From Lichina pygmaea (lineage: Eukaryota; Ascomycota; Lichinomycetes; Lichinales; Lichinaceae), in assembly GCA_963422465.1 (NCBI GenBank), contig OY730172.1, forward strand, positions 4,526,001 to 4,590,000: DNA of 64,000 bases, given 5' to 3'. Each line of letters opens with the position of its first letter. The first letter of the stretch is position 1. Under the pieces are notes generated by a model. The model ran no database searches, was not told the DNA's origin, and saw nothing but the letters and a program-made list of their open reading frames with translations. A program made the translations under genes and the position numbers. This document shows, piece by piece, positions 21,596-58,229 of this stretch.

Positions 21596-22240
21596 TCAAC
21601 ACCCGTATGGTGGGGCCGCATAAGGTGGTCCTCGGACCGGACATGATGCTGTCTCGGTAAGGATGCCAGTCGCACAACCCGCGCGACAAGCGGTCTTGCA
21701 GGGGAAGGTGCTGGTCGAGGTCGGCGTGCACGGGCAAGCCTCGGTCGGACAAGGCCGGGTCTCGGTGATCAGCTCAATGCATTGAAGCTCGACGCAATCG
21801 GTCGGTTCCGGTGGGCAGCCGGTTGACTGTGAGACGCGCGTGACGGCCGTATAGCATCCCGGGCAGGGCGACGATATGACGGTGTTGGTGATCGTCGGGC
21901 AGCCAATCTGACGACACCCGGGACACTTTCCCTTCTCGGTCTTGGTCTGGGTGGTCGGGCAGTCCGAGTTGGGACACGGCAGCGTCACAACCTCCGTTTC
22001 GAGCCTCAGGCACTGCAGCGGCGGCGCGCATCTCAACAGCGGGCAGACCTTCGGCGGCGTAGTTACGGTGGCGGTGTAGCACTTGGTCTTGGTCCCCGTA
22101 GGCTCGGCCGAGACGCAGACGCTGGGAGTGGACGCCAATTAACAGGGCCAACAACATCTCTGCCAAGGAGTCAGAGGGGATGCTTACCCGAGGAAGATGG
22201 CGAGGGCCAGAAAGGCACGGTCAAGGCCTGCTGTCAACAT
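21596..22240 (-). CDS. Small secreted cysteine-rich protein with CPxC motifs
   Basis: Two exons (22188-22240, 21596-22121; GT-AG intron of 66 bases) encode 192 residues. The product starts with a signal peptide, MLTAGLDRAFLALAIFLG, with cleavage likely near VCVSA. The mature part is rich in cysteine, proline and threonine, with repeated CP steps: LPCPNSDCP, KGKCPGCRQ, SSPCPGCYTA and ACPCTPTSTSTFPC. It has no membrane segment and no clear GPI signal, ending YAAPPYGC. I do not recognise a named family. The CPxC/threonine-rich style recalls fungal wall or surface proteins. It shares CPxC motifs and promoter layout with the giant protein at 27229-31239. An alternative acceptor (CCTTGGCAG) would give a different start to exon 2 and a broken frame. 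Confidence 0.72.
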
Positions 22241-23964: not shown

Positions 23965-25514
23965 ATGGGGATTCCGGCCGAGGAAAGGGAGGTGCTCACG
24001 ACCATCTCGCCCACTACGAACCAACCGATCGTGACCAGACATGGCCTGAACTCTACGGAGCTGTATGCTCTCGGGAACCGAGCACGAGAGGCACAGGCCC
24101 GACTGCGGAAGCTCAGTCTCTCGGAAAGGCAAGACATCGTGACCAAGGCGCTCGCGTCGCTTCGTGACAGTAAGGATGTGCTGGGCCAAGATCTGACCAA
24201 GGAAATGGGTCGTCCCATCGCATCTACTCCCGGTGAGATCGACACGGCGGTCAAGCGAGGAGAATACTGTCTCAAGATCAGTTCGGCTGCCATGAGCGAC
24301 ACGCCAGGCGACGAACAGCTGGGGTTCAGGAGGTACATCCGGAAGGAGCCTGTGGGCGTGGTGCTGATCGTTTTTGCCTGGAACGCAAGTGGCTCAATCC
24401 TGCGCGAGCCAGGAACGTCTATTCTGACCAGGGGTCGCTGAACGCAGTATCCTTACCTGATCCTGATGAACTCTTTGATCCCCGCCCTCCTGGCAGGTAA
24501 TGCCGTGGTCTTGAAACCGTCACCGCAGACGCCAACCGTCGCCGAGCACATCCAGCGCATCTTCGTCGCTGCTGGTCTGCCTCAAGACGTGATTCAGTAT
24601 TTCCATTGTGGATCCAGCGAGCAGCTGGAATCTTTCATCAGGTCCGGCAACGTGGATATGGTTTCCTTCACGGGCTCCGTGGCCGGAGGGAGGGCGGTCG
24701 AGAAGATGGCCAGCGGCGTGCTCATTCCGGTCTGTCTCGAGCTCGGCGGGAAGGACCCTGCCTACGTGAGGGCCGACGCCGACATTCCCAAGGCCGCCGA
24801 GGCTATCGTCGACGGCGCCATCTACAACTCGGGCCAGAGCTGCTGCTCCGTGGAGCGTGTCTATGTGCACGACTCCGTCCACGACGACCTGGTCGCCGCC
24901 ATGAAGGATGTCTTGCGGGAACATCGTGTCGGAGACCCGCTCGACAAGGACACGACTTTGGGGCCGGTCATCTCGAAGAAGGCGCTCGAGTCCATCCACC
25001 GGCACCTGGCCGATGCCTTGTCTCGGGGAGCTTCTGATGCGACACCGAAGCATCCTAGTTTCGAAAGGCTGCCGTCTGAGGGCAACTTCATCGCTCCCAG
25101 ACTGCTCATCGACGTCAAACAAGACATGGAAGTCATGCAGGAAGAGACTTTTGGGCCCATCATTCCGGTGATGAGGGTTCCCGACGATGCGGAGGCAATC
25201 CGAGTGATGAACGATTGCAAGTACGGTCTCACAGCAAGCATCTGGACCAAGGACATCGCAGGGGCCGAAGAGATGGTCGACAAGATCGTCGCTGGCACAG
25301 TCTTCATCAACCGATGCGACTATCCAAGTCCTGTAAGTCAGACGCAGAGCCGCGGGGCCGGCTTAGGAGCAACGCGCTGACCGCAACAATGTAGGATCTG
25401 GCCTGGAGCGGGCGGAAGCTCTCGGGCAAAGGCGTCACGCTCAGCCGCTTCGGGTTCGAGCAGTTCCTCAAGTTCAAGAGCATTCACATCAAGGAAAGTC
25501 TGGGGGAGACATAA
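23965..25514 (+). CDS. Aldehyde dehydrogenase (succinate-semialdehyde type)
   Basis: Three exons (23965-24384, 24448-25332, 25395-25514) encode 474 residues of the NAD(P)-dependent aldehyde dehydrogenase superfamily, which oxidises aldehydes to acids in the cytosol or mitochondria. The Rossmann part holds ALLAGNAVVLKPSPQTP and VSFTGSVAGGRAVEK. The catalytic residues are E238 (CLELGGKDP) and C272 (NSGQSCCSVERV). The C-terminal EETFGPIIPVM and FGFEQFLKFKSIHIK are typical. The first intron (24385-24447) begins GCAAGT, a GC-AG intron; reading without it hits stops, and removing it joins FAWN to YPYLILMNSLIPALLAGN. The second intron is GT-AG. No targeting peptide is evident. The substrate is not determinable; similarity of style points to succinate semialdehyde or a broad-range enzyme. 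Confidence 0.88.
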
Positions 25515-27228: not shown

Positions 27229-30200
27229 CTACCACAGCTGGAGGATCAACGAGATCGAGCCGATGCACACGGCCGCCGCGATGGAGTTCACGGTAACCGC
27301 TCGGGAAGCAACGGACTCATCTGTTGCGCATCGGAAGCCATCAATGTCAGACAGTCGTCCAGAAAAGCCACATGCTTCCAGGGCAAACTTACACATGATG
27401 AACGAGTCCGTTGCGTTGGGGTTGGCCTGAGCGTCAGGATTGACCTTGGCATCAGGGTTGGCACCCGCATCAGGATTGGCACCCCCGTCGGCTTTGGGCG
27501 GAGCAGCCATCGGATTCGAGGTTGCGGCCGGCCCGTGCGAATCGGTCAAGGGGCCAGAAGTGACGACCGTAGAAAACCCTTGGTTGCCCGCAGGCGCGGC
27601 GGAAGAATGGCTGTAGCCAGGCGCACCGCCTGCCGCAGCATCGGCCGGGTTGGCCATCGGCCCGTCGGCGTGTTCGACAGCAGTTTCGGCGCTCTGGTCA
27701 CCAGCCGCCGAGGAGGCTGGGTGACCCTGGGCTCCGGGGAGGCGCGACACGCCAGAATCTTGGGGTGATTGAGCCACGGGCGTCCCCATGTCTTGGGATC
27801 CTGAGGCATCGTGGGACATCGCAGTATGCTCGGGCGCCGTGTGGTGGGATCCTGGAGTACCATGGGACATCGCGGGGTGCTGAGCCGCTGTGTGGTGGGA
27901 TCCTGGGGTACCGTGGAACATCGCAGTATGCTCGGGCGCTGTGTGGTGGGATCCTGGGGTACCGTGTGACATCGTGGTGTGCTCGGCCGCTGTGTGGTGG
28001 GATCCTGGGGTACCGTGCGACATCGCGGGGTGCTCGACCGCTGTGTGGTGGGATCCTGGGGTACCGTGGAACATCGCAGTATGCTCGGGCGCTGTGTGGT
28101 GGGATCCTGGGGTACCGTGCGACATCGTGGTGTGCTCAGCCGCTGTGTGGTGGGATCCTGGAGTACCGTGGGACATCGCGGGGTGCTGAGCCGCTGTGTG
28201 GTGGGATCCTGGGGTACCGTGCGACATCGCGGGGTGCTCGACCGCTGTGTGGTGGGATCCTGGAGTACCGTGGAACATCGCAGTATGCTGGGGCGCCGTG
28301 CGGTGGGATCCTGGGGTACCGTGGGGCATGGCAGGGTGCTCGGGCGCCCCCATTAGGTGAGATCCTGGAGCGCCGTGAGACATCGCGAGGTGCTCAGGCG
28401 CCACCGTGTGGTGGGATCCTAGGGCACCATGGGGCATGGCAGTGTGCTCGGGCGCCGCTGTGTGATGAGATCCTGGAGTGCCGTGAAACATCGCAGTGTG
28501 CTCGGGCGCTCCTGCGTGGCGGGATCCTGGAGTGCCGTGGGACATCGCAGAGTGCTTGGGCGCCGCTGCGTGGTGGGATCCTGGAGCACCGTGGGGCGTG
28601 GCGGGATGCTCGGGCGCCCCCATGTGGTGGAAAGCTGGAGCACCGTGGGGCATCGCAGGGTGCGTATCGGGACAGTCTGGGCATTCCGGCGAGGGGCGTC
28701 GGGTCGCTTCGGGTCCATCCACCCTGCGGGTATTGTTCAGGAACGTGTTGTGGCTGCCGATGCTGCTCGCTGCCGCCATCGGAACCGGGAGGGTGGTGAC
28801 GTAAGTCGTGGTTGCCTCGTCGCAGGTGGGGCAAGGCTTCACGACAACGGTCATGGTAGTTGTCATGAGCGTCACCTTCTTGGTGGCCGTTAGCGTCGAC
28901 ACCGTGGCCGGCGCCGTCATCGGCGGGCAGTCGGGGCAGGGGCTGGTAAGGGTCGCTCCGTGGACTGGTGGCTGGACGTTGACCCCATCCGGGCAGTCGG
29001 GGCAGGGGCTGGCAAGGGTCGCTCCGTGGACTGGTGGCTGGACGTTGACCCCATCCGGGCAGTCGGGGCAGGGGCTGGTCCACTTCATGGTGTGGGCCAA
29101 CGCGCCCTTGGGTGGCGCAGTAGCCGTCACGGGCAGGGCTACCATCAAGGGGGGGCATTCGGGACACTCATGCCCCACGGTGATGGTGGTGATGCTCTGC
29201 GGCCGGTGCGGCATCGGTCCTAAAGGCACGGGTCAGCAGAGACCTTCGTCGACGAGATGCCCTCCAAAGGGGGGGGGGGGGGGGGGGGGGTAAAGGATGA
29301 GCAAGATCGCCGTACCTGTGCTGTCGCCGCGATGCATCACCCAGGGCTCGCCATAATGCAGGAGAGCCATCTTGGCGTCGACCTTGGGCGGCGCATGTGC
29401 CATGACGACGTTCTGCGCATGGTCGAAGTAGCAGTCGCAGTGCTTGAAGACCTCGACCAACGGACAGTCTGGACAGAACTTGGCGATGTATATCGTGGGA
29501 CCGAAGTTGTAGTAGTTGATCTCGTTACGAGCGAACATGATCAGGACGCTGGAGGGGAAGTCGAAGCTGTAGTTCGGCCCATAGTAGAAGTGGTTGTTCG
29601 CCGAGACGTCTCCGGTCGAGGCCTTGGCACCCAGGTGAGCAGTCTCGGTGTTGAAGGTGTGGTTGTTGATCGTATGGCTGTTGACCGTATGGCTGTTGAC
29701 CGTATGGTTGTTGATCGTATGGCTGTTGACCGTGTGGCTGTTGAACGTCTGGTTGTTGTACGTCTGGCTGTTGTACGTCTGGTTGTTGTACGTCTGGCTG
29801 TTGTACGTCTGACTGTTGACAGTCTGGTTGTTGATCGTTTGGCTGTTGACCGTTTGATCGTTGACCGTTTGATTGTTGACCGTGTCATCGTTCGCCGTCT
29901 GGTTGTTGACTGTTGGATCAATGCCCGTCTCGTTGTTCGCCGTCTGGTTATTGCCTGTTGGATCGCTGACCGTCTCGTTGTTCGCCGTCTGGTCGACTGC
30001 TGGATCGCTGACAGTCCCGTTGTTCGCCGTCTGGGTGGCTGTTGGATCGCTGGCTGTTGGATCGCTGGTTGCTGGGTCGCTGACTGCTGGATCGCTGACA
30101 GTCCCGTTGTTCGCCGTCTGGGTGGCTGTTGGATCGCTGGTTGCTGGGTCGCTGACTGCTGGATCGCTGACAGTCCCGTTGTTCGCCGTCTGGGTGGCTG

Positions 30201-31239
30201 TTGGATCGCTGGCTGTTGGATCGCTGGCTGCTGGATCGCTGACAGTGCCGTCGGTCGCCGTCTGGGTGGCTGTCGGATCGCTGGCTGCCGGGTCGCTGGC
30301 TGCTGGGTCGCTGACTGCCGGATCGCTGACTGCTGGATCGCTGACAGTGCCGTCGGTCGCCGTCTGGGTGGCTGTTGGATCGCTGGCTGCCGGGTCGCTG
30401 GCTGCTGGATCGCTGGCTGCTGGATCGCTGGCTGCTGGATCGCTGGCTGCTGGATCGCTGGCTGCTGGATCGCTGGCTGCTGGGTCGCTGACTGCTGGAT
30501 CGCTGACAGTGCTGTCGGTCGCCGTCTGGGTGGCTGTTGGATCGCTGGCTGCTGGATCACTGGCTGCTGGATCGCTGGCTGCTGGGTCGGTGGCTGCTGG
30601 ATCGCTGGCTGTTGGATCGCTGGCTGTTGGATCGCTGGCTGTTGGATCGCTGGCTGCTGGATCGCTGGCTGCTGGATCGGTGGCTGCTGGATCGGTGGCT
30701 GCTGGATCGGTGGCTGCTGGATCGGTGGCTGCTGGATCGCTAGCTGCTGGATCGCTGGCTGCTGGGTCGGTGGCTGCTGGGTCGGTGGCTGCTGGATCGC
30801 TGGCTGCTGGATCGCTGGCTGCTGGATCGCTGGCTGCTGGGTCGCTGGCTGCTGGGTCGGTGGCTGCTGGGTCGGTGGCTGCTGGATCGCTGGCTGTTGG
30901 ATCGGTGGCTGCTGGATCGGTGGCTGCTGGGTCGGTGGCTGCTGGATCGGTGGCTGCTGGATCGGTGGCTGCTGGATCGCTAGCTGCTGGATCGCTGGCT
31001 GCTGGGTCGGTGGCTGCTGGGTCGGTGGCTGCTGGGTCGGTGGCTGCTGGATCGCTGGCTGCTGGATCGGTGGCTGCTGGATCGGTGGCTGCTGGGTCGG
31101 TGGCTGCTGGGTCGGTGGCTGCTGGATCGCTGGCTGCTGGGTCGCTGACAGTCGCTACGTCCGTCGTGGCCGATTCGTCCTGAGCAAAAGTGACACCAGC
31201 CAGCAGGCTGGCCAGAATCGCAAATCGGATGAGAAGCAT
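27229..31239 (-). CDS. Giant repeat-built, CPxC- and His-rich surface protein
   Basis: Three exons (29316-31239, 27393-29219, 27229-27320) encode 1,280 residues. Introns of 96 and 72 bases join in frame; the first contains the G/C homopolymer near 29270. Layout: signal peptide ([19 protein letters not shown]); pentapeptide repeats [S/T]DPA[A/T/V], about residues 30-413; Asn-rich NNQT/NSQT/NSHT repeats with many N-glycosylation sequons, 416-530; a non-repeated segment, 533-641 ([20 protein letters not shown]); a CPxC region, about 642-818 ([14 protein letters not shown] twice, KPCPTC, ECPDC); about 16 copies of a 17-18-residue [16 protein letters not shown] repeat, 828-1118; a Pro/Ala-rich linker; and a hydrophobic tail after S/N residues that suits GPI anchoring. 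It is probably a wall-anchored adhesin- or mucin-like protein. His and CPxC repeats make metal binding possible (inference). No named family is recognised. Confidence 0.75.
27790..28660 (-). repeat. Coding minisatellite, 51-54-base unit
   Basis: About 16 copies of a unit carrying GTGGTGGGATCCTGG on the plus strand, encoding the His/Gly/Pro/Met 17-18-residue repeat of the giant protein. Unit lengths are multiples of three, so copy-number change keeps the frame. The copies between 27840 and 28320 are the most alike, which suggests recent expansion or homogenisation. Confidence 0.85.
30000..31150 (-). repeat. Coding minisatellite, 15-base unit
   Basis: A long array of GCTGCTGGATCG(C/G)TG-type 15-mers on the plus strand, encoding the [S/T]DPAA pentapeptide of the giant protein. 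Higher-order units carrying TQTATDGTV or TQTANNGTV appear at its 30000-30540 end. Because 15 is a multiple of three, gains and losses are frame-neutral. Confidence 0.9.
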
Positions 31240-31347
31240 GGTGACGATCGACGCCGGCGTCCGGGGCTAGGCTCGTGGATGACAACCGTGGAGAAACACT
31301 TGACTGAGATACGAGCAACTCCTCGAAGAAGGGGCGACAAGCCATCC

Positions 31348-31353
31348 TTATAT
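31348..31353 (-). promoter_or_regulatory. TATA box of the giant surface-protein gene
   Basis: ATATAA on the minus strand, with its near edge 109 bases upstream of the start codon at 31239. This is the same spacing as in the small CPxC gene. Confidence 0.5.
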
Positions 31354-32384
31354 GTCCCTGAGAGAGCCATCCTAAGGGGTAAAGGGAAGAGAGCAGCTCC
31401 CGGCCGATGAAGCTCTGACTTCTTTACGCCACGGCAAGAAAGTGGTCCAGACAAGCGGAAGGGCAAATCCAATCGATCGTACAGCACATTCGTACTGTAG
31501 TGTTCCCGTTCAGGAACTCCACTCTACTACCAGCAAGCGGGTAGTAGGTCAGAAAGGGGTCTAGCCGTCAAGCATTCGGCCGTCGTGGCCGCCGTGGCCG
31601 CCGTGGCCGCCAAGGGGTTCTGCTGTCAAAGCGTTGAGCGATGTCGCAGTTGCAACTTATCGCAATGCATGTGATGACGATTTCATGTGATCGGGTCGTC
31701 GTTGCGCACGTGATGGCGATTCTGCATGAGTAGGTCATCATCATGCACGTGACAGTCTCATGTGAGCGACGAGCGACCTTGACGAAGAATGCCATTCCAA
31801 AAAAGGAGAAGTTCGAGATCCAATTCAGAAATTCAATGGAACGATCTTCAGTTTGGAATTCGTCCAGAGTTCAACAGGAGCTACGTAACGGATGAAGCCG
31901 GAATTGTCTGTTGAACCGTTGCGATGCCATGGACTAGTTGCGCTAGACGTCACGTGCCTTAGTCCGTTCACCTTCTCGTATGTACGGAAGTAGGCGTGGG
32001 GCACGCTGACCTTAGGCGCAGCCCCGCCTAACCATGGGCCTATTAGCAAGCAGAGAACTTTCTTTACGCGCTCGATCACGCCATCTCGACTTTGTTTCCT
32101 CTGGGGGTATAGCTCCGATTAGCTCCAGTCAGCGTCATGTGGTGGGGGACCGGTGGGGACCCAGCGTCAACGAGAACGTCGATTGCTAACGCTCCGTTCG
32201 TGGCCATTCCCTACGATGGCGAAGATTTTCAGTCCCACGGAATGGGACCCGCTGCCACTGGAAACGCTTCCTGATCCTCACATCGAGATCTAAGCCAGAC
32301 TTGACGGCAGCTCTACGCTGTTGCTCTGACCAGCCCGACAACGACAGCTGCCGGTGGGAACGGTGACCGCGTTCCGATTGAAAA
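31354..32384. other. Divergent intergenic region before MET5
   Basis: Lies between the promoter of the surface-protein gene and the MET5 start. It has a GGCCGCCGT tandem at 31580-31612 and repeated CATGTGAT/CACGTGAT steps at 31670-31760. No gene is recognised. Confidence 0.4.
31707..31956. promoter_or_regulatory. Three CACGTG E-boxes upstream of MET5
   Basis: CACGTG occurs at 31707-31712, 31746-31751 and 31951-31956 (the last as TCACGTG). In yeast, Cbf1 with Met4 binds TCACGTG in sulfur-assimilation promoters, so regulation of the downstream sulfite reductase gene is plausible. The same motif also occurs near unrelated genes in this window, so specificity is uncertain. Confidence 0.35.
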
Positions 32385-35300
32385 ATGTCTCTCGGCCAGA
32401 GCATCTCGACTGCTGAGGAAGCTGGTATGCGCACGCTGGAGCAACACCTCTTTCGTTCCGGGCAGCATCGCTGACACCTGAACCGGACCTGCAGCGGCGA
32501 GGATCGCGTATCTGGCGAGCGATGTGGTGATCTCGGTGCAGCCGTCGCTGGCACGGGATTCGGCCTTCTCGGGCACACTCGATGATCTCTCTAGGGCAAA
32601 GGTGGCGAGCGCGGATTCCAGACGAGCCGGGATCGTGCCGGAGGTATGAGCCCGCTCGCCTCGATATCGCCATGCGCCGAAGGTAACCTCTGCGCAGGTC
32701 CGAAAGGTTCGATACAATGCAGATCCCCTGCTGTCTGTCTTTGGCCCTTTGCGGTCTGGCCGCTTGGTGTCCGTCACAACAGACCTGTCCATCTTGCTCT
32801 CATCTGTATCGTATCTCTACAAGCTTGCTCAGTATCCGCTGGTCGTGCATGTGTCCTTGCAGCCGGCCGGCAAGGCCGATTTCTCCGAGATCACTGCCGT
32901 GAGACAGACCGGTTTCACCTTCTTGCAGTCCGAGTCGTTGTTGGAAGCCCAGGACATGGCGCTGTCGGCCCATGCGCTGGCGAACAAGTCCGGAAAGGGT
33001 GTGATTCATTTCTTCGATGGTCGGTCCTCGAGGCACGACCGACCGATATCGGTGGAGAAGCCGGATGTCTTGCGGCAACTTCTCCACGGACCCAGCCTGG
33101 GAACGGCAAAGTCTGCGGACGACGAGAGCCTGGCTCTCTACGCGGACGATGGCACGACGGCCACGTTCACCGAAGTACAATTCTCTCATGACCGTGGGGC
33201 CGGTGTTGCTCCCGGGGAGCTAAAAGGGACCCCGACCCCAATGTCCAGGGAGCAGTCGTCCGTCGGCTCCTCGCGCCGCGACAGCAGCGTTGAGAGCGGG
33301 GCTCTGGCGTCCTCGGTCACTTCGGTGGAGCCGACGATCACTCGGGCTGTGTCCGCCCGAGACCTATGCGGGTGGCTATCCGACATCTGGCGCTCCCTTC
33401 ATTCCGCCACCGGCCGGCTGTACACTCCCTTCGAGTACTCCGGTCCGCCCGACGCCAAGACCGCTCTGTTCCTCTTCGGTACGGATGCTGGCCTGTTCGG
33501 CAACGCCATCGACGCTGCCGCGAGCGCGGAGGTGTACGCGAGCGCTGGCATCGTCACCGCGCGGCTGTACCGGCCTTGGCTGGGGCAGGAGCTCCTCAAG
33601 ACCTTGCCGGGATCGATCGAGCGCGTGGCCGTGTTGGAGCCGATTCGCCGTAAGACGACAAGGTGGGGGCCCCTTCTCCTGGACGTCCTCTCCGCCGTCA
33701 AGGACGGCTCGGTCGCCCGGCGAGACGTGCTCGTGGTTGCCTATCAGCTCGGCGTCGTGGCTGCCTCGACCGTCGCCCAGGCTCTCCGGGGGATTCTTCA
33801 GAACCTGACCGCCGACGCTCCGCTGCAGAACGTCGTCGTCGGTGGCTCGGACGCTTCGATCCCGGCCGTTGTCCGCGACCACCTCGACCGGCCGAAACTG
33901 GAGTCGGCCTACACGAAGATCTTGAACCAGCTGTTCGGCGAGCGCCTGTACATCGCCAACGCACCCGGCTCCGACGGCGGTGGCGTATCGGCCCGCATCG
34001 CGTCGAATCCAGAGTTTGGCCTCGGCTCGTTGATTGCCCGTCAGGAGCGTCGAAAACGGCTCATCCAAGACGTGCAGTCCATGGTCGAATCTAACCAGTT
34101 CGTCACCGGCAATCCCGGGGCATGGCTGTCGAAGTGGGCTCTGCATGCAGATGACTCGAAGAAGGCGAACGACCTGGCGCGTGAGGTCGTCGCGCGCCTG
34201 GCAACCGACGGTTCTAGGCTGTCGTCCGACCTGCTTTCGATCAGACCCCTGTTCTTCAAGGAGTCGCAATGGCTGATCGGCTCGGACGCCTGGGCGTACG
34301 ACCTGGGCAACTCGGGCGTCCACCACGTCTTGGCGTCCGGTGCCAACGTCAACATGCTCATCATCGATTCGCAACCGTACTCGGACCGGTCCGCGAGCGA
34401 CGCGTATCGAAGAAAGAAGGACATCGGGCTGTACGCGATGAACTTCGGCAACGCTTACGTCGCATCGGTCGCCGTCTACAGCTCATACACGCAGGTGCTA
34501 CAGGCCATGGCCGAGGCGGACCGGTTCGACGGCCCTTCGGTCGTGCTGGCGTACCTCCCATACCAGGCCGAGGACGAGTCGCCGATAACGGTCCTTCAGG
34601 AGACCAAGAAAGCAGTCGACGTCGGCTACTGGCCTCTGTATCGCTGGACCCCTCCGGCGGATGAGAAGGCCGAGCCCACGTTCGAACTCGACTCGGAACG
34701 CATCAAGGCGGAGCTGCAGGACTTCCTCCGAAGAGACAACCAGCTCACCCAGCTGATGCGGAGACATGCACGATTCTCCGCAAACCTGTCCGAGTCGTAC
34801 GGTAGCGAAGTCCGGAGATTGCAGAGACGCAGCGCGAAGGATGCGTACGACAAGCTCCTCGAAGGCCTTGGTGGCGCCCCGTTGACGGTCCTCTTCGCCT
34901 CGGACAACGGCAACGCCGAGTCTCTGGCCAAACGGCTAGGCTCGCGAGGCAAGGCCCGTGGGCTCAAGACCGTCGTCATGGCCATGGACGACTATCCTCT
35001 GGAGGACCTGCCGAGCGAAGAAAACGTTGCGCTGCTGACAAGCACGGCTGGTCAGGGAGAGTTCCCCCAGAACGGACGGTCCTTCTGGGATGCGATCAGA
35101 AACTCGACCGATCTCGACCTCTCCCGGATCAACTTTGCCGTCTTTGCCCTCGGCGACAGTCACTACTGGCCGAGGAAGGAGGATCGAGTCTACTACAACA
35201 AGCCCGGCAAAGACCTCGACGGGAGACTGGCGACCCTAGGCGGCAGCCGATTGACGGAGATCGGGATGGGGGACGATCAGGACCCTGATACCTACCAGAC

Positions 35301-37376
35301 CGGCTACGCCGAATGGGAGCCCAAGCTGTGGCGAGCGCTCGGCGTCGATGCGGTCGACGGGCTGCCCGAGGAGCCCCCGCCCATCACCAACGAGGACATC
35401 AAGATCGCGTCGGGCTATCTTCGCGGCACCATCGCCGAGGGCCTCGAAGATCAGACGACCGGCGCCATATCCGCCAGCGACCAGCAGCTCACCAAGTTCC
35501 ACGGCACGTACATGCAGGACGACCGGGACCTGCGGGACGAGCGGAAAGCACAGGGGCTAGAGCCGGCGTACGCGTTCATGATTCGATGTCGGCTGTCGGC
35601 CGGCGTGGCGACGCCGTCGCAGTGGCTCCAGATGGACGCCATCTGCGGCATGTACGGCAACGAGACGATGAAGCTGACCACCCGACAGACGTTTCAGTTC
35701 CACGGCGTCATCAAGGGCAAGCTCCGTCCGGCCATGCAGGCGATAAACAAGGCGCTCATGACCACGATCGCCGCCTGCGGCGACGTCAATCGCAACGTCA
35801 TGTGCAGCACCATCCCGGAGCACTCGAGCCTCCACGGCGAGGTGTACGCGGCGTCCCAGCGGATAAGCGACCATCTGCTGCCGTCGACGACGGCCTACCA
35901 TGAGATCTGGCTCCAAGGAGACGGCGACAAGAAGACCCAGGTCGCCGGCGACGCCGTCGTCGACCACGAGCCGCTGTACGGACCGACGTATCTTCCTCGC
36001 AAGTTCAAGATCACCATCGCCGTGCCGCCGCACAACGATACCGACGTGTACGCCCACGACATCGGGCTCATCGCGATAAGGAACGGCGACGGGGCCCTGG
36101 CCGGATTCGACGTCCTCGCCGGCGGCGGCATGGGCGTGACGCACAACAACAAGAAGACGTACCCGCGTACCGGGAGCATGCTTGGCTACGTGCCGGCCGA
36201 CAAGGTTCACCTGGCGTGCGAGAAGATCATGCTGGTGCAGCGCGACCACGGAGACCGCAAGAACCGCAAGCACGCCAGGCTGAAGTACACGATGGACGAC
36301 ATGGGAGTCGACGCGTTCAAGGCGAAGGTCGAGGAGCTCCTCGGGAAGAAGTTTGACGAACCGCGCCCGTTCCGTTTCGACAGCAACATCGACACCTTCG
36401 GCTGGCAGAAGGACGAGGGCGGGCTCAACCACTTCACGTTCTTCATCGAGAACGGCCGGGTCGAGGACACGGCCGATTTCCCGATGCGGACCGGCCTGCG
36501 CGAGATCGCCAAGGTCCACCGAGGCGAGTTCCGGCTGACGGGCAACCAGCATCTGATCCTGAGCGGCGTCGCCGACGCGGACCTGCCGGCGATGAAGGAG
36601 ATGCTCGCGCGCTACAAGCTGGACAACATCGGCTTCTCGGGCCTGCGTCTCTCGTCCTCGGCCTGCGTCGCCTTCCCGACGTGCGGTCTCGCGATGGCCG
36701 AGAGCGAGCGGTACCTGCCGCAGCTGATCACGAAGCTCGAGTCGACGCTGGAGGAGAGCGGGCTTCGGCACGACAGCATCGTCATGCGCATGACCGGCTG
36801 CCCGAACGGCTGCGCCCGGCCGTGGCTCGCCGAGGTGGCCTTTGTCGGCAAGGCGTACGGGGCCTACAACATGTACCTCGGCGGCGGATACCACGGCCAG
36901 CGCTTGAACAAGCTCTTCCGAAGCAGCATCCAGGAGGCCGAGATCCTCGACATTATGAAGCCGCTCCTCAAGCAGTACGCTCTGGAGCGCCACGACGGCG
37001 AGCGGTTCGGCGACTTTGTCATTCGGATCGGCATGATCAAGCCGACCTCGGAGGGGAAGACATTTCACGAAGACGTAAGTCTGCCATCTGCTTTTCTTCT
37101 TGTTGCTTCTCTTCCTTTCCGGGCAATCTTTACCGCCCCAACCTTTCTTTTTTCTCCTTCTCCACATCGTCCCGAGCTCTTTACCCTGTCCATCCCGCCA
37201 GGGGGGTTGGGAGCCTTCCCTTATCTGCCGGGCCAAAACTCGGTGCCGTCTCTTCTCCTCGCGTTTTCACACGCAACGGGCCAACCGCTGTCCGCAATCG
37301 GTCCTTGACAAAGGCTAACGTTCTGCTCTTCCGAACACGTCCACAGGTCGCCGAGGAAGACGAGCCGGAGGAGTAA
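32385..37376 (+). CDS. met5: Sulfite reductase (NADPH) beta subunit
   Basis: Four exons (32385-32424, 32495-32643, 32698-37074, 37347-37376) encode 1,531 residues. The chain reduces sulfite to sulfide in the cytosol together with the flavoprotein alpha subunit (Met10). The N-terminal half resembles pyruvate:ferredoxin oxidoreductase-type domains (TALFLFGTDAG, KWALHADDSKKANDLA). A flavodoxin-like domain starts at about 793 (LTVLFASDNGNAESLAKRLG, STAGQGEFP, FALGDSHYW). The hemoprotein part follows, with the siroheme/4Fe-4S cysteines C1386 and C1392 (SACVAFPTCGLA) and C1431 and C1435 (TGCPNGCARP). The first exon codes 13 residues, MSLGQSISTAEEA, and phases join perfectly to ARIAYLASDVVISVQPSLA. 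The last exon supplies only VAEEDEPEE. Length agrees with fungal Met5 (about 1,440-1,530). Confidence 0.95.
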
Positions 37377-38774: not shown

Positions 38775-40327
38775 CTAGACGAGCTTCCAGTCCTTGTAGC
38801 TCCACTTCTCCGTCCACTTGACCCTGCGGCGCTTCTGGCGCGACACGCGACGTCGCGATTCGACCTTGCCGCGGAGCAGCATGCTCCGGAAGCGGTCGCG
38901 CAGGAGGTTGCCTTCCGGCTTGAGCGCGCGCAGCGAGTCGCGCAGATCGTCCGGGAGCACGAGGTCGAGCGTTTCCGCGAGGATTCTTGGAAGCTGGTCA
39001 GCACTTGTGCGTTGGAGCATGGGAGACAACGAAGCGACGAGGGGCGAGAACAAGCCGCCACGCGTAGAGGATTACGGGCAGGAAAGGGGAACGAGAGTGA
39101 CGACGTATACGTACGGTGCTTTCCCAAAACGCTTCTTTCGCACTGCCACCTCCTCGTTGTCAGACGACAAGGCAGAGGCCGCATCGTCGTCAGCTTGGCC
39201 GTCAGCACCGTTGGCACGTCCTCGACCGTCGCTCTTCGATCGGCGTTCTTGGGCGTCGAGCGCCTTCACAATCTGTCGAATCTGCGCAGCCTGCCGAGAG
39301 CGCTTCTTCATCGCCAGCTCCGCCGCCCTCTGCCGCTCGGCTTCCTTCCTCCGAGCGATCTTGTTTCGTTCGGATTTTGTCTTCTTCCGCTGCACCTTTG
39401 CTTTAGGCCGCTCTGGCTCTGGCTCTCGGTCGCTCACGATGCCTTCCCATTCGCTGCCGTCGTCATCGTCATCGCCCTCGTCGTTGTTGACGCGCCTTTC
39501 GTATTCCTCCACCGTTTCTCGTTCTCTCTGGAAGCGAAGCTCTTTCTCCTTGGCCGCCTCCTCCTCCTCTCTCTGCTTCTTCTCCGCCTTGACCTCCTTT
39601 TCGCCCTCTCGGATCAATGCCTCGAAATACTCGGTCGACTGGGGATTGTAGCTCGTCGCCGGTTTGGGCTTCTGAACGGCCGGGACATCCTTCCCATTCG
39701 CCGACAGAGACACCGGTGCTCGTTTGAGCGTCTTGGGCTCTCGAATCGGCTTTGGCCGGTCGAGGAACGAGAACTGCTCCGACAAGTCTTGGGCCGCCCA
39801 CGGATCCTGCTTGGCCTCCTCGTCGTGTTGCAAAATCCGGGAGCGCTCGCTGTCTCCGCTCGTGTACGCGAAGGTCCTCAGCCGGTTGAGCTCCTTTCCG
39901 CTTATGCCCCCAGATCGAAATCTCTTGGATCTCGGCGCCAGGACCCCATCCGTGACTTTGGACGAAGCACGCTTCCGCGTGTCTACAGCTGGTATGGCCG
40001 ACCGCGCAGTCAAGATCTCATCCGCCCTCAAGGGCTTGTTGTGTTTGTTGTATGCACGCTGAGCAGCGTCATTGCCGGCAGTGTCGAGCGTAAAGAGCTC
40101 GGAAGACGGTTTCTCGGCGATGACACCTCTGGAGGCAAATCAGCGCGACATGACCTGAGCCATTCAGACGACGACCGGTCGCAACCGAACCCTTTGATCA
40201 CTTCATCGCGTACATTCTCAAGCCCCTCCTCCACTTGCGTGAGATCTACGTTCTTCCTCCATGCCTTTTTGCCTTTCCGTGAAGGCTGCTTGAATTGCTG
40301 CGGAGCCGATATCGATTTAGCAGCCAT
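38775..40327 (-). CDS. nop53: Ribosome biogenesis protein Nop53
   Basis: Three exons (40191-40327, 39115-40128, 38775-39003) encode 459 residues. Nop53 (GLTSCR2 family) acts in late pre-60S maturation in the nucleolus and recruits the exosome helicase Mtr4 in yeast. The start MAAKSISAPQQFKQPSRKGK and KAWRKNVDLTQVEEGLENVR are diagnostic, followed across the first intron by KGGVIAEKPSSELFTLDTAG. The middle is charged and coiled-coil-like. The C-terminus LPDDLRDSLRALKPEGNLLR, VKWTEKWSYKDWKLV is the family's conserved end. The first intron has a weak GTTCGG donor; the second uses GTACGT. Divergent from YPT6 with 313 bases between start codons. Confidence 0.92.
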
Positions 40328-42957: not shown

Positions 42958-43012
<55 letters not shown>

Positions 43013-51222: not shown

Positions 51223-52212
51223 ACGGTTGTTTCAACCGCTATGGATGGGTCTCTGCGGCACCAAGCTTCAGCCATCTGCCCGCATGCTCCACAGAGTGAT
51301 TCTGCTAATAAGAGGGGGTAGGATGGTGGAGCTTAACGTTCGATTAACTGGGCCACAAGTGAGACTGTCCCGTGCTACTGAGAGGGCTTTGAGGGCGGGA
51401 AGAATGAGAGGGAAAGGGCCGAGGTGTTCCTCATACGAGAAGATAATTCGTACTTCTGGGTATACAGATAGGGCAGTGAGCTGTTGGGACAAGACGTTGA
51501 TCTGGCGAAAGAGTATCTGGTCTTTTGTGTTTTTTTCTCGCCCTAAGTAGCAAGTACAGTTTACAAAACACAACTCGCGCAGCCGAGACAAGCTCAAGCC
51601 CATAGAACAGACGATCGCTACCTTCTTTGCTCAGGGGTCAGGAGCAAACAATCACCGATCGCTACCGACATTCTGAATCGCTAGCCATTGAATACAGCTA
51701 AGAATCTGACCTCAGCCATATCATACCACTGCCAAGAGAAGATCGACTTGAATCGGATTGTGCGCCCGGCTAGCAACCGAGGCACCGAGGATCTCGACAC
51801 CAAGACAGCTGCGGGCACGTCGAAGGAAAGAGCCACGAGACAGCCCAGCAATGTCGTTGTCGGACGACCTTCCCGAGCTGCTGAGGGGAAGGGAGAAACT
51901 ATCGATCGTCAGCCGGGCTAACGTGCAGACGTCGCTTACGATACCTGGGGAAGCCTATGGCAGACCGTCGAACCCACCGGGGACGTGCAGAAGACGCCTG
52001 GTTTTCGCAGGAAGAATGCGAGAGCCAAGACAACAGTGGTTCCCCCACGGTACTCCCTTGTTTCCCTGCACGATCCATCCTGCACTGTCTTCACTTACCT
52101 CCCAAGAGTATAGATACGGTAGATAGGCAGATTGTATGACCTCTTTACGCGAATCTGTTGTCCGTCCAATGTACTGCATGTAGACTTGATGCGCGGGACT
52201 CGATGCGGGTGA

Positions 52213-52395
52213 TATGATGCTTGAAATGATGCTTGAATCGATGCTTGAATCGATGTGTGAATCAGTGTGTGAATCAGTATGTGAATCGGTGTGTGAATTG
52301 ATGCGCGAACTGACGTGTGAATTGATGCGCGAACTGATGTGTGAGTCAACGGGTGAATCAGTGAGTGGATCAGTGCGTGAATTAATCGCGAATCA
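52213..52395. repeat. Minisatellite, 12-base unit
   Basis: About 15 copies of a GATGTGTGAATC-like unit with drifting variants (GATGCTTGAATC, GATGCGCGAACT, CAGTGTGTGAAT). Confidence 0.75.
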
Positions 52396-53383: not shown

Positions 53384-56300
53384 TCAAACCGCTCCCGACA
53401 GACGTCTGGCCCACGTCATTGGCAGGGCTGGCCCTGGTCCAGACATCGACGAGGCTTGACCGCCAGAAGAGGTAGAGGAGGCCTGTGGCGGTTGTGGACG
53501 CGCGTATACTCGTTCAGACGGCTGTGCGGCCAGGATATGCGGTGGCAACCGTTGCTGCTGCTGTTGTTGTTGTGGTCGGGGAGACGCACCGCCGGGAGGC
53601 GTCTGCGGCGCCGAAACGGTCGGGACGGATTGCTGTCCGGATCGCGGCGGGCCTTGGGAATGAGCGTGACCCTGGCCGTGGCCGTGGCCGTGTCCAAATC
53701 CTCCAGGGGCTTCTCGCGGCTTGTGAGAGCCTCGTCGTCCGCCGCCCTTGCTGTGGCCACCGCTCTGGCTCGAGGGCGCTCGCTGCTTGTTCGTCGGGGC
53801 CGAAGACGTCGCGGGACGACTGCCGGGAGCGCCAGATCGGCCTCTGAAGAGGAATGCTTTCGTCTTCAACGACCCCGGGAGGCGGACCTCGATGACGGAG
53901 CCTTGCGCAGACTGGGTCTCCTTGAAGACGAACGCGTCGCGGGTGGTCACCTGGATGGGCCTCTGGAAGCGTTGCCGTCCCTTGCCGGCGTTGGCGGGCG
54001 CCCTGGCTGGTTGCCACGAGCTCTCCGGCGTGCGGACAGGGAGCTTCACCGTCGGTCGAGAGCCGAACTCGGGTTCGCCGAAGACGGCCTCGTCCGTGAC
54101 GCGCGAGAAGACGTCTTCGACGGCGATCTGGAGCACGGGCGAGCCTGCGTCTCCGGCGGCAGCGGCTGCCGTCGCTGCACGGTTGCGGACGGGCAACGAC
54201 ACCGTCGCCGACGGCCGCATCGGCGCCACCTCCAACGGGGCCTTGCTCGACGAAGTCACGCTCGCCGTATGCGATTTGGTGCTCCCGCCGTGCTTCCGCC
54301 CCATGAGCGTGTCGATCTTCTCCTGCCAGGACGACGGTGCCTCGGACGACCGCGCTGGCGAGCCCACCGCGGCCGGTTCGACAGGCTTGGCGGCGACGGT
54401 GGGCGGAGTCGTCGGCGGAGCCGGCGTCGCCGCAGGCGGCAACCGCACGATTGGCTTGGGCGGGGGCAGACTGACGTTGGGACGCTTGCTGTTGCCGTCG
54501 TAGGCAGGGTGATCGCTCGACTCGGGCGGCGGTGACGTCGGCAGCTCTTCGAGCACCGGGTCCGGTGCAGGTCGTTGTTCCTGGGGCGCTGCCGGCGCCG
54601 TCGCCGTCGTGTGCGGGAAGAACCGAGACTCGCGTGTGCCACCGTGGGTCGAGGACGACATGATGTTCCCCTGCGTCGTCGGCGCGGGACTTTGGCCCGC
54701 CGCCCGGTGCGGAATCGTCGTGTTCAGCTGACTCGAGGCCAGCGAATCGCCCGTGATCTTCGCCTCCGACTTGCTGATGACTTTTCGCTGCGCGCTGTGG
54801 ATCGTCTCGTCCACGACGACGCGTCGCCACGTGTCAGTGAACGCAGGCAGGCTCGGAACGTGCTGAGCACCGACGGTCGCCTGCTGAGCGGCTCGTGCGT
54901 TGCGTTCGTCGCGCTCGCGCGCGGCTTTGATCACCGCCGCCGCGTCGTTCGCCTCGATCTGAGCCGGAAGGCTCTTCCAGGCTGCTCGCGCTCGCTGTTC
55001 GCCCGTCATCTCGGACACGAGGGGCGACGAGGTCGACTGGCCAATGTCGCCCGCCGGCACGATGCCGGTCCCGATGCGACCCGACGAGGAGGCGCCGCCG
55101 CCGCCGCCGCCGCCGAAGAGGCCGCCGTCGTGACCGAGGCCCAACCGTGACTTGACGCGATCCGGAGCTTGCTGTGCTGCCATGCTGGGTGGACCGATGG
55201 GCCCAGGAGCAACGGACGACGGCCGTAGAGATTGCGCTTCCGCCGCCGCCGAGAGGTTCGGGTGCTCGTTTCGAGCGACGCCCGAATCCGTTGGCCCGTC
55301 CGAGTTCGGCGGGCCCCACAGCGGACTCTGCTGATTCGGCCGTGCGTCGCCGATGAGCTCTCGTGCCATATTCCTCGACGGCTCGAACGGTGTGCGGGGC
55401 TTGTTCCTGGGCTGCTCGGGTCGCTCGTGCGGAGGCACGTTCTCTCGTGGTCGCGCCTGGCCACGGCCGTCTTTCGTCGGACCGGCTCTCGCGTCCATCG
55501 GACCGTTCAGATGCGGTCGCTCGCGGCGCGATTCCGCGCTCTCCTCCGCCGGCCCTGGCTGCGTTGGCCCGTCGCCGACTTTGGTGCCCGTCGTGTTGTG
55601 AATCGAGTTACTGCGCCAGCTGGACCCCTTGCGGAGCGATATCGGATTGTGAACTTTCATCGAACCGTATTGCTTTACGTCTTCCGACGCCTCGGAGACC
55701 AGCGGCTGCGGAGGCGAAAGAGCGAGTCGTGGTGTTTCTTTGTCGGTGGTGGGTTGAGGGATCTTGACGTCGGTCGTTGTTGGCGTTGGCGTTGGCGTTG
55801 GTGTTGTTGAGGTGATGTTGTTGAGCCCAGCCACCGCTTTTTGGGCCGGTTCGGTTTTCTCCTCCAGGGGCATGCCCAGGTCTTCGAGTTTTTTCCGAAT
55901 TCGCTCTCTCCTCTCGGAATTCTCCCGCTCTTCTTCCTCCTTTCTGCGCTTCATCGCGAGTTCTCGACTTTCACGCATGATCTTCCGTTGTAGAGCGATG
56001 GGGTCTTCGATCGGTGCTGGCTGGGTCGGAGGTGGCGTCGGTTGAACCGGGTGCGGGGCCTGGTGATGTGGATCCGGCCTCGACGTATCGACTGCGGGGC
56101 CTGCCTCGGCATTTGCCTCGGCCTGCAGCGGCGACCGGCCTCGGTCGGGATCCGACGGCGCGTAATCGGAAAGGCCCTGGCCGTGAGGTGACGCTGGGTC
56201 GGTAGCCCTGTCGGAGTGTATGGTCTGCTGCGAGCCTTGCCTACCTCGAGGAGGTGGAGGTGGGAGAGGGGGGGGAGGCATCGCGTCGGGCGAGAACTGC

Positions 56301-58229
56301 TGTCCGTCCGGCGCTTTGCCGAGCAAGGCGTGGCGAGCTTGGACGGCGCTCCCACCGCTGACGTTGGACGAACCCCGCCGTCGTCCCCAGCCCAGGTCTT
56401 GTCCGCCCGATCGATGGGTCTGAAATGCGGCCGACGGTTCGGCAGGACCTCGGTGGTCGAGGTGCGGCGGCCTCTGCAGGACCGAGGGCTGGCGGTAGCC
56501 GGCGTCGGCGCGGATCGAGTTTCGTCGATGCTCGCCGACGGGCTCGTAGCGACCGGACTGAGAGTTGAAGAGCTCCCGGCTCGCGCCAGGCTGGTTGTCA
56601 CGCCACGCTCGGTTGAAGTCGTCGGCCGCGATCTCCTTGGCCGGAGACGGGGCGCGAGGCGGCGTTTCAAACCCATGAGGGTCCTTCTGGAAGCGCTCGA
56701 ACGGCGGGGGTTGCGGAGGGTTGATGGGCACCGGTGGGACCTTGTCGACCGGTGGTAGAGGTGCCCATGGCGACTTGACGGCCACGGGGGCTGGCGGCTT
56801 GGCCACGAGCGTCGGTTTCTCCGGAGCCCCTTTCAGGACGAGGCCGACTGGCCTGGACTGCCCGTTCGAAGGGGTCGACGCCGGCTTCGAGCTCGGTTGT
56901 GCGACGTTTGGCGCCGGCTTGGCCGCAGGAGGTGGCGACTTGGGCTTCTCGGCCGCGGTTGATTGTTGTTCTTGTTGTTCTTGTTGCTGCTGCTGCTGCT
57001 GCTGCTGTTGTTGTTGTTGCTCCCCCTCCCCCTCCAGCGGCTTCACTGGCGGCTTCACCGAGCCCACATCGTTTGGTGGCTCGTCCGCCGTGCCAAGCGT
57101 GATCTTAGTGCCGTCGTTCCATTCGATCGTCTCGGGCGCCCAGTCGTCGTCGTCGTCGTCAATGTCGGCCCACTTTGCCTCTTTGCTAGTCTCGTCTGCC
57201 CGAAGCCTCGTCGCCAGATGGATCCCATACTGCTGCTTGAGCTCTTCGTCGGTGAACTGCTTTGGCGGTGGCGGTTGAACGGCTGGTTCGTCTCCGTCAG
57301 TCGCTGTGAGGCAGCCGAGGACCGAAAGAAGCATTGCCGAAGGCACTCACGTCTGTTCTTGTTCCAGACCTGGCTCGGGTCTGGAGCGGTGGCATGGCCC
57401 GCGCTGGCGGCGCTTATGGAAGTACGGAGGCCGCCCTCTCGGCCGCCTCCAGACTTGGCGACGAGGCGAGGCCGGGGCGGCGCGCCCGGAGCCGAGGACG
57501 AAGGTTGCGCGCCGGCAGACGTGCCCGTGGCTGTTGTGACATCGTTAACCCCATGGCCCCTTCGTGCCCCGAGATGCGACATCAACCAACCTTTCTCGCC
57601 TGGCAGCTTCGACGGAGGGGCCGATCCGGCCGCAGCTTTGGCGAGGAAACTCTTGGTGACCGACACGGCCTTGAACGATGCCGGCTTCTTGACCGAGCTA
57701 GACCGGAGGTGACCTCGATTGCCGCCATCCGATCGACCCGGGGCCGGACTCGCGCCCCGTTTGCCGACCTCGTTGTCGGAGCCGCCGCTGAAATCAGCCA
57801 AGGGGCCGTGGGCGCTCAAATCTTCCGCGTCTAACGCCTCGGGCCCGTCACCGTTGACCATCGGCGTCGCAGCCCTGGAGACATCGTTCTTGCCCACCGA
57901 CGTGGACGATCCAGCACGGCCCTAACAATCCGATGAGCAGGCTGCCGACGCGCATTGAAGCGGACCGAACTCACGGTCTCGCCGTGCGACTGCGAGGTGC
58001 CCTCTGGGTCTATCCCGTTTACAAGAGGCCTCAGAGCCGAGGCGGTAGAAGCTGGTGCGGTGCGATCGATGCTATTGCGCGTGTCGTTGCCGGCGGTCGA
58101 AGTTGGCTGTCCCTGCATATCTGCGGTCGTAGAAGGCTGCTGGGATGTACTCGTATGATCGTCGGCGAGCGAGTGGTCGCCCACCGACCTGGCTTGAACT
58201 ACCACATCGTGGGCACCCTGATCTGCCAT
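53384..58229 (-). CDS. Large disordered fungal protein of unknown function
   Basis: Three exons (57975-58229, 57351-57921, 53384-57303) encode 1,581 residues. Almost the whole chain is low-complexity (Pro, Ser, Gly, Gln, Ala), with no signal peptide or membrane span. Two parts look conserved: a short acidic-tryptophan block after EELKQQYGIHLATRLRADE, namely KWADIDDDDDDWAPETIEW, and a basic coiled-coil block IALQRKIMRESRELAMKRRK, EEEERENSERRERIRKKLED. A poly-Gln run (about 56970-57017) follows the first block. I recall this pattern in proteins of other moulds but no name or function for it. RG/GG-rich and Trp-rich disordered proteins often belong to RNA or translation complexes, but this is only a guess. 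Intron 1 (57922-57974) and intron 2 (57304-57350) are GT-AG and in phase. Confidence 0.7.

Follow-up and report, generated by a model that had tools for sequence, protein, structure and literature searches.

The minus-strand region 27229-31239 of a 64,000 nt window of the Lichina pygmaea genome (assembly GCA_963422465.1, contig OY730172.1, positions 4,526,001 to 4,590,000; coordinates below are those of the window) is best supported as one spliced gene for a secreted, probably glycosylphosphatidylinositol (GPI)-anchored repeat protein of 1,280 residues. From the sequence we infer, with a probability of about one half, that the product is a structural or adhesive protein of the cell wall, held there by its GPI remnant, of the adhesin-like class with variable repeats, and working as a block polyampholyte. 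The assignment to a single gene for a secreted protein is supported by the phase and signals of the predicted splicing, by the codon scores of most of the unique parts, by the lack of a signal peptide of its own in exon 2 and by the hydrophobic tail.

A sequence-only reading of this DNA had proposed that two long open frames join through a 96-base intron in exact phase. A script translation of 31239-29316, 29219-27393 and 27320-27229, joined in that order, gave a single minus-strand frame of 1,280 residues with no internal stop, which agrees with the proposal. The parts of the gene, in the direction of transcription, are as follows.

29316-31239, minus strand: exon 1, which by translation covers residues 1-641 plus one base of codon 642, with the signal-type start, the 5-residue repeat field and the unique segment
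31183-31239, minus strand: signal-type start read from the sequence, residues 1-19, likely cut before Q20
29650-31149, minus strand: field of 15-bp (5-residue) repeats, residues 31-530, DPxx[S/T] units then N[NDS][QHED]T units
29317-29649, minus strand: unique segment, residues 531-641, the only long non-repeat segment, with the first CPxC motif (residue 589)
29220-29315, minus strand: predicted intron 1, 96 nt, GTACGG...CTGAC...TTTAG, splitting codon 642, with a long C run inside
27393-29219, minus strand: exon 2, with the CPxC region, the His array and a low-complexity stretch
28672-29166, minus strand: CPxC region, residues 660-824, with six of the seven CPxC motifs
27760-28647, minus strand: His array, beginning at residue 833, with 16 units of 17-18 residues and a degenerate one at residues 1111-1128
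27321-27392, minus strand: predicted intron 2, 72 nt, GTAAGT...CTGAC...CAACAG, a multiple of three in length, in frame and free of stops
27229-27320, minus strand: exon 3, with the hydrophobic GPI-type tail and the stop codon

The ATG of exon 1 lies in the context CACCATG. In the predicted intron 1, the branch A of CTGAC is 13 bases from the intron end. Among the 26 GT-AG pairs of 45-300 nt that join both frames without a stop, this intron ranks first by an ad hoc consensus score, and its lead is narrow (7 versus 6 for the next three). As the C run lies within intron 1, slippage there would leave the protein unchanged. Exon 3 had also been credited with supplying the hydrophobic tail, and this part of the proposal does not hold. 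Because intron 2 is in frame and contains no stop, the tail is read whether or not it is spliced, and the unspliced open frame of 666 residues already runs through it. Retention of intron 2 gives 1,304 residues and the same end, and its removal gives 1,280, which is 24 residues fewer.

Three features that mark the repeat-variable GPI wall proteins of fungi are present. A putative N-terminal signal peptide is recognized by sequence and by hydropathy: no 18-residue window in the chain is more hydrophobic than those beginning at residues 1 and 2. The C-terminal end has, on inspection, the small residues, spacer and hydrophobic end of a GPI signal; the last 18 residues have a mean hydropathy of 1.91 and stand behind a stretch with small residues. 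Both ends are thus as the sequence-only reading described them. The tandem repeats are in frame, with units of 15, 51/54 and 66 bp, each a multiple of 3.

The tandem arrays far exceed chance expectation: with the threshold at 50, Tandem Repeats Finder scores 1243 for the 15-bp array, 883 for the 51-bp array and 303 for the 66-bp array. In the 5-residue field, 65 DPxx[S/T] units (25 DPAAS, 21 DPAAT, the remainder variants) begin at about residue 31 and are continued by 20 N[NDS][QHED]T units, and inserts of the TQTA(TD/NN)GTV type among the DP units shift the register. Four different repeat systems had been claimed for this protein. The repeats are there, but the DPAA and Asn-rich units are best described as one interleaved field, because they share a 5-residue period and interleave over about residues 236-445, and because the inserts shift the register of the DP units. 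The description of the Asn-rich units as glycosylation repeats applies in part only, as 13 of the 16 N-x-S/T sequons in the whole protein fall within residues 340-530. That the minisatellites are frame-neutral was borne out: the spacings listed for exact repeats (15, 66, 72, 75, 153, 159, 204, 240 and 357 bp) are all multiples of 3, and exact copies of at least 80 bases occur at spacings of 240, 72 and 153 bp. The count of His-rich units, put earlier at about 16, was also correct. In the 16 units, six of which are 18 residues long, His 1, Gly 2 and His 13 are invariant, His 7 and His 8 are present in 15 and 14 units respectively, and the array holds 62 His in 285 residues.

Residues 20-530 contain 77 Asp, 3 Glu and 6 His and no Lys or Arg. 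By arithmetic from textbook pK values, which is not a measurement, their net charge is -70.8 at pH 5 and -79.4 at pH 7, and that of the His array is +48.2 at pH 5, +21.2 at pH 6 and -4.3 at pH 7. The opposite calculated charges of the Asp and His blocks suggest a block polyampholyte that would switch at around pH 6. It is chemically plausible that these His residues bind metal at neutral pH, either instead of this switch or in addition to it. In the arrangement we propose, a GPI remnant would fix the chain in the cell wall, and outward from the anchor there would follow a short low-complexity stretch, the His-rich array, the CPxC modules, the non-repeat segment bearing Tyr and Cys, and the acidic Asp-Pro-Ala-(Ser/Thr) stalk. 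The His-rich block would thus form the inner part of the protein and the acidic block the outer part. Below about pH 6 the His block would be positive and could pair with the acidic stalk of an adjacent molecule or with some other polyanion, at neutral pH the His units could take up Zn or Cu ions, and the CPxC pairs may serve as disulphide staples or cross-links.

The CPxC motifs number seven, as had been stated, and begin at residues 589, 660, 692, 714, 736, 771 and 821. Three of them lie inside the 66-bp tandem array (2.3 copies, 98 % matches) and most are set in Pro/Thr-rich sequence. The six frames of the window hold 21 CPxC strings, seven of them in this gene and two in a short frame rich in Cys at about 21.9 kb. 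Together with the paralogue of that frame, this makes two other Cys-rich frames of the genome in which the motif occurs. The frame near 21.9 kb (about 21600-22240, minus strand) is of a secreted type, carries CPxC and CP motifs and lies on the same strand, about 5 kb away. It has one paralogue in the genome (C3:1806527-1806973, E 2.4e-10) and no Pfam match up to E 5. No homology was detected between the CPxC region and these short CPxC proteins at E values up to 10.

The assembled genome (32,469,017 bases in 8 contigs) was searched with the His array, with the CPxC region and with residues 531-641, and among the best candidates, which alone were scored, there was no second significant match to any of them. 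Uniqueness of the gene is meant here for its own genome only. Three weak matches to the CPxC region (E 0.028, 0.12 and 0.17) lie in frames without resemblance to it. A profile search with residues 533-641 and the CPxC region had been recommended as a check; searches with residues 531-641, the CPxC region and the His array gave no Pfam family above cut-off (DUF7560 matched the CPxC region at E 0.42). There was no significant match among PDB sequences, and none of the 21 pattern matches of the unique segment in the bacterial and archaeal collections, or of the 8 in the viral collection, was confirmed. Extensin_1 (35.5 bits, cut-off 105) and HC2 (30.2 bits, cut-off 40) stay below cut-off in the DP repeat field and are taken as composition effects. 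The earlier statement that no described family has this design therefore holds for Pfam-A and the PDB sequences, but surface proteins with variable in-frame repeats are a well-described class in fungi (PMC3843709, PMC5049851, PMC6023273), and PMC6023273 catalogues the features of adhesins.

By its predicted anatomy the gene belongs with the repeat-rich GPI wall proteins, and differs from them in having several kinds of repeat and blocks of opposite charge. It resembles FGSG_01588 and FGSG_08844 of Fusarium graminearum, length-variable GPI proteins with a signal peptide, a GPI signal and in-frame tandem repeats (PMC3843709). The repeat-variable surface proteins of Aspergillus fumigatus, among them CspA (Afu3g08990), MP-2 and a CFEM protein, share the in-frame repeats (PMC5049851). 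Unlike the F. graminearum and A. fumigatus repeat proteins, the Lichina chain, in the one genome examined, has several repeat kinds and both acidic and His-rich parts. Mad1 of Metarhizium and of nematode-trapping fungi also combines secretion and GPI signals with repeats and Cys-rich parts (PMC4778117, PMC3596358, PMC6023273). In nematode-trapping fungi it has a CFEM domain and Thr-rich Cys repeats such as EAPCTEYSCTA (PMC4778117). The Pfam matches of the Lichina protein include no CFEM domain at E values up to 5, and repeats of the EAPCTEYSCTA kind are absent from the chain by reading. The repeat stalk and GPI-type tail recall the ALS, Flo and GLEYA adhesins, but the repeats start near residue 31, about 12 residues past the likely signal cut. 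The internal repeat of the PIR wall proteins follows the pattern Q[IV]xDGQ[IVP]Q, which has no match in the chain. Mussel foot protein 4, like other adhesive proteins rich in His and Asp, also carries its His-rich and its Asp-rich repeats as separate blocks of a single chain; the likeness to these proteins is one of composition only, and homology is not expected. No His-rich GPI wall protein of comparable design was among the papers listed for our search terms in the open subset of PubMed Central, and one may nonetheless exist.

Codon use was compared over the six frames as log-odds, with a table built on 2,408 codons of four stretches nearby. Six stretches had been chosen for training, of which two, 39072-40136 and 928-1900 on the minus strand, were excluded because the chosen frame had stops. 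The sense frame scores highest of the six in the region of residues 531-641 (0.28, next 0.16), the Asn array (0.20, next 0.09), the tail of exon 2 (0.08, next -0.05) and exon 3 (0.28, next 0.19). The units of the His array differ from one another at 99 places, and read in the sense frame 49 of these differences are synonymous, against an expected fraction of 0.30 (z 4.6, the top of six frames, next 3.1). The test covered 16 units; the degenerate unit was set aside, as was the additional codon in the six units of 18 residues. The changes are 8 synonymous and 3 other in His codons and 24 and 43 in other codons (Fisher p 0.043). The synonymous-change tests here and below, like this Fisher test, count repeat copies and not independent events.

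That dependence among copies weighs against the proposed reading, as do several further results. The sense frame is the lowest of six in the DPAA array (-0.13, or -0.21 when only synonymous choices are scored), third in the His array (-0.15) and second in the CPxC region, at 0.02 behind an antisense frame with one stop at 0.07. Synonymous-only scores do not separate the frames in the exon 2 tail (0.01 versus 0.02) and barely do so for residues 531-641 (0.16 versus 0.15 in a frame with 8 stops). The synonymous-change test gives a neutral result for the 19 units of the Asn array (z -0.3), while for the 65 units of the DPAA array it yields z 6.5 in an antisense frame and 1.4 in the sense frame, so that the DPAA array by itself lends no coding support. 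A structure model of residues 531-641 has a mean pLDDT of 35.1 and is too poor to inform (best E of the fold search 1.7), and no N-terminal ligand domain of the ALS, Flo or GLEYA type was matched in Pfam up to E 5. We consider it scarcely credible that the real gene is instead the 717-residue frame on the opposite strand (29257-31410, plus strand). This frame is open across all of exon 1 and outscores the sense frame in the DPAA array (-0.01 versus -0.13). However, several frames are open in exon 1 because the 15-bp repeats contain no stops, and the antisense frame scores -0.11 in the unique part and -0.22 in the Asn-rich part, where the sense frame has 0.28 and 0.20. On our reading the repeats say little on coding, and the unique parts favour the sense frame. 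Two separate genes, the one ending at 29233 and the other starting at the ATG at 29214, would account for two frames each long and open by itself, and that ATG, the first in frame in exon 2, lies only 5 bases into the exon. This too is very unlikely, since intron 1 has all three splice signals (donor, branch sequence, acceptor), joins the frames in exact phase and comes first among the 26 candidates, and the second protein would have a GPI-type tail and no signal peptide: for exon 2 alone there is neither a signal-type start nor an earlier in-frame ATG.

With one spliced gene taken as the preferred reading, a strong rival concerns what its product does. The protein could be an ordinary repeat-rich wall protein, a passive spacer whose composition has drifted through minisatellite expansion and whose His and Asp content serves no particular function, and we regard this as a possibility to be taken seriously, if a less probable one. 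In the DPAA units the codons preferred by nearby genes are not favoured, the long exact copies and the 98 %-alike 66-bp array indicate recent turnover, and deletion of the two length-variable GPI-protein genes in F. graminearum is reported to give no obvious phenotype (PMC3843709). On the other side stand the synonymous excess of the His array, where His is invariant at positions 1 and 13 across all 16 units, and the absence of Lys and Arg from residues 20-530. A metal-binding or redox protein of the wall, in which the His units would sequester Zn or Cu and the CPxC pairs would be redox active, is improbable in our view. The density of His in the array and the seven CPxC motifs speak for it, but no Pfam family exceeds its cut-off and no PDB match is significant, and the structure model can neither show nor exclude a redox fold. 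The mostly Pro/Thr-rich setting of the motifs and their presence in two other Cys-rich frames fit disulphide staples. The suggestion of redox activity in the sequence-only reading took the CPxC letters as its evidence, and it finds no support here.

Domain matches elsewhere in the window include Kei1, Nop53, MYST-type and fungal transcription factor domains. An open frame at 32749-37308 (plus strand) has NIR_SIR, flavodoxin and POR_N domains, the domain composition of a fungal sulphite reductase subunit. At 53384-57343 (minus strand) lies an open stretch of 1,319 residues, rich in Pro, Gln and Ser, with no Pfam match at E 0.001. An aldehyde dehydrogenase gene contains a probable GC-AG intron of 63 nt at 24385-24447 (plus strand), read by eye. 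Two further repeats were seen, a perfect CGC repeat of 18.3 copies at 42958-43012, which gives a poly-Gly run in an open frame that carries a Kei1 domain, and a degenerate 12/24-bp tandem array of TGAATC-like units at 52210-52382.

If the class assignment alone holds, the gene would encode one more unnamed wall protein, at most a marker for strain typing. A more specific proposal, which we consider rather unlikely, is a pH-switched wall adhesive, the only such protein in its genome and lacking a classical ligand domain, in which an Asp stalk and a His array of opposite charge, each derived from its own minisatellite, would make self-association tunable by repeat number. If the charge-block reading is true, Lichina pygmaea would possess an adhesin-like protein that does without a classical ligand domain, and a natural acid- or metal-responsive adhesive, built from separate minisatellites in one gene, with a strength that the number of repeats could adjust.

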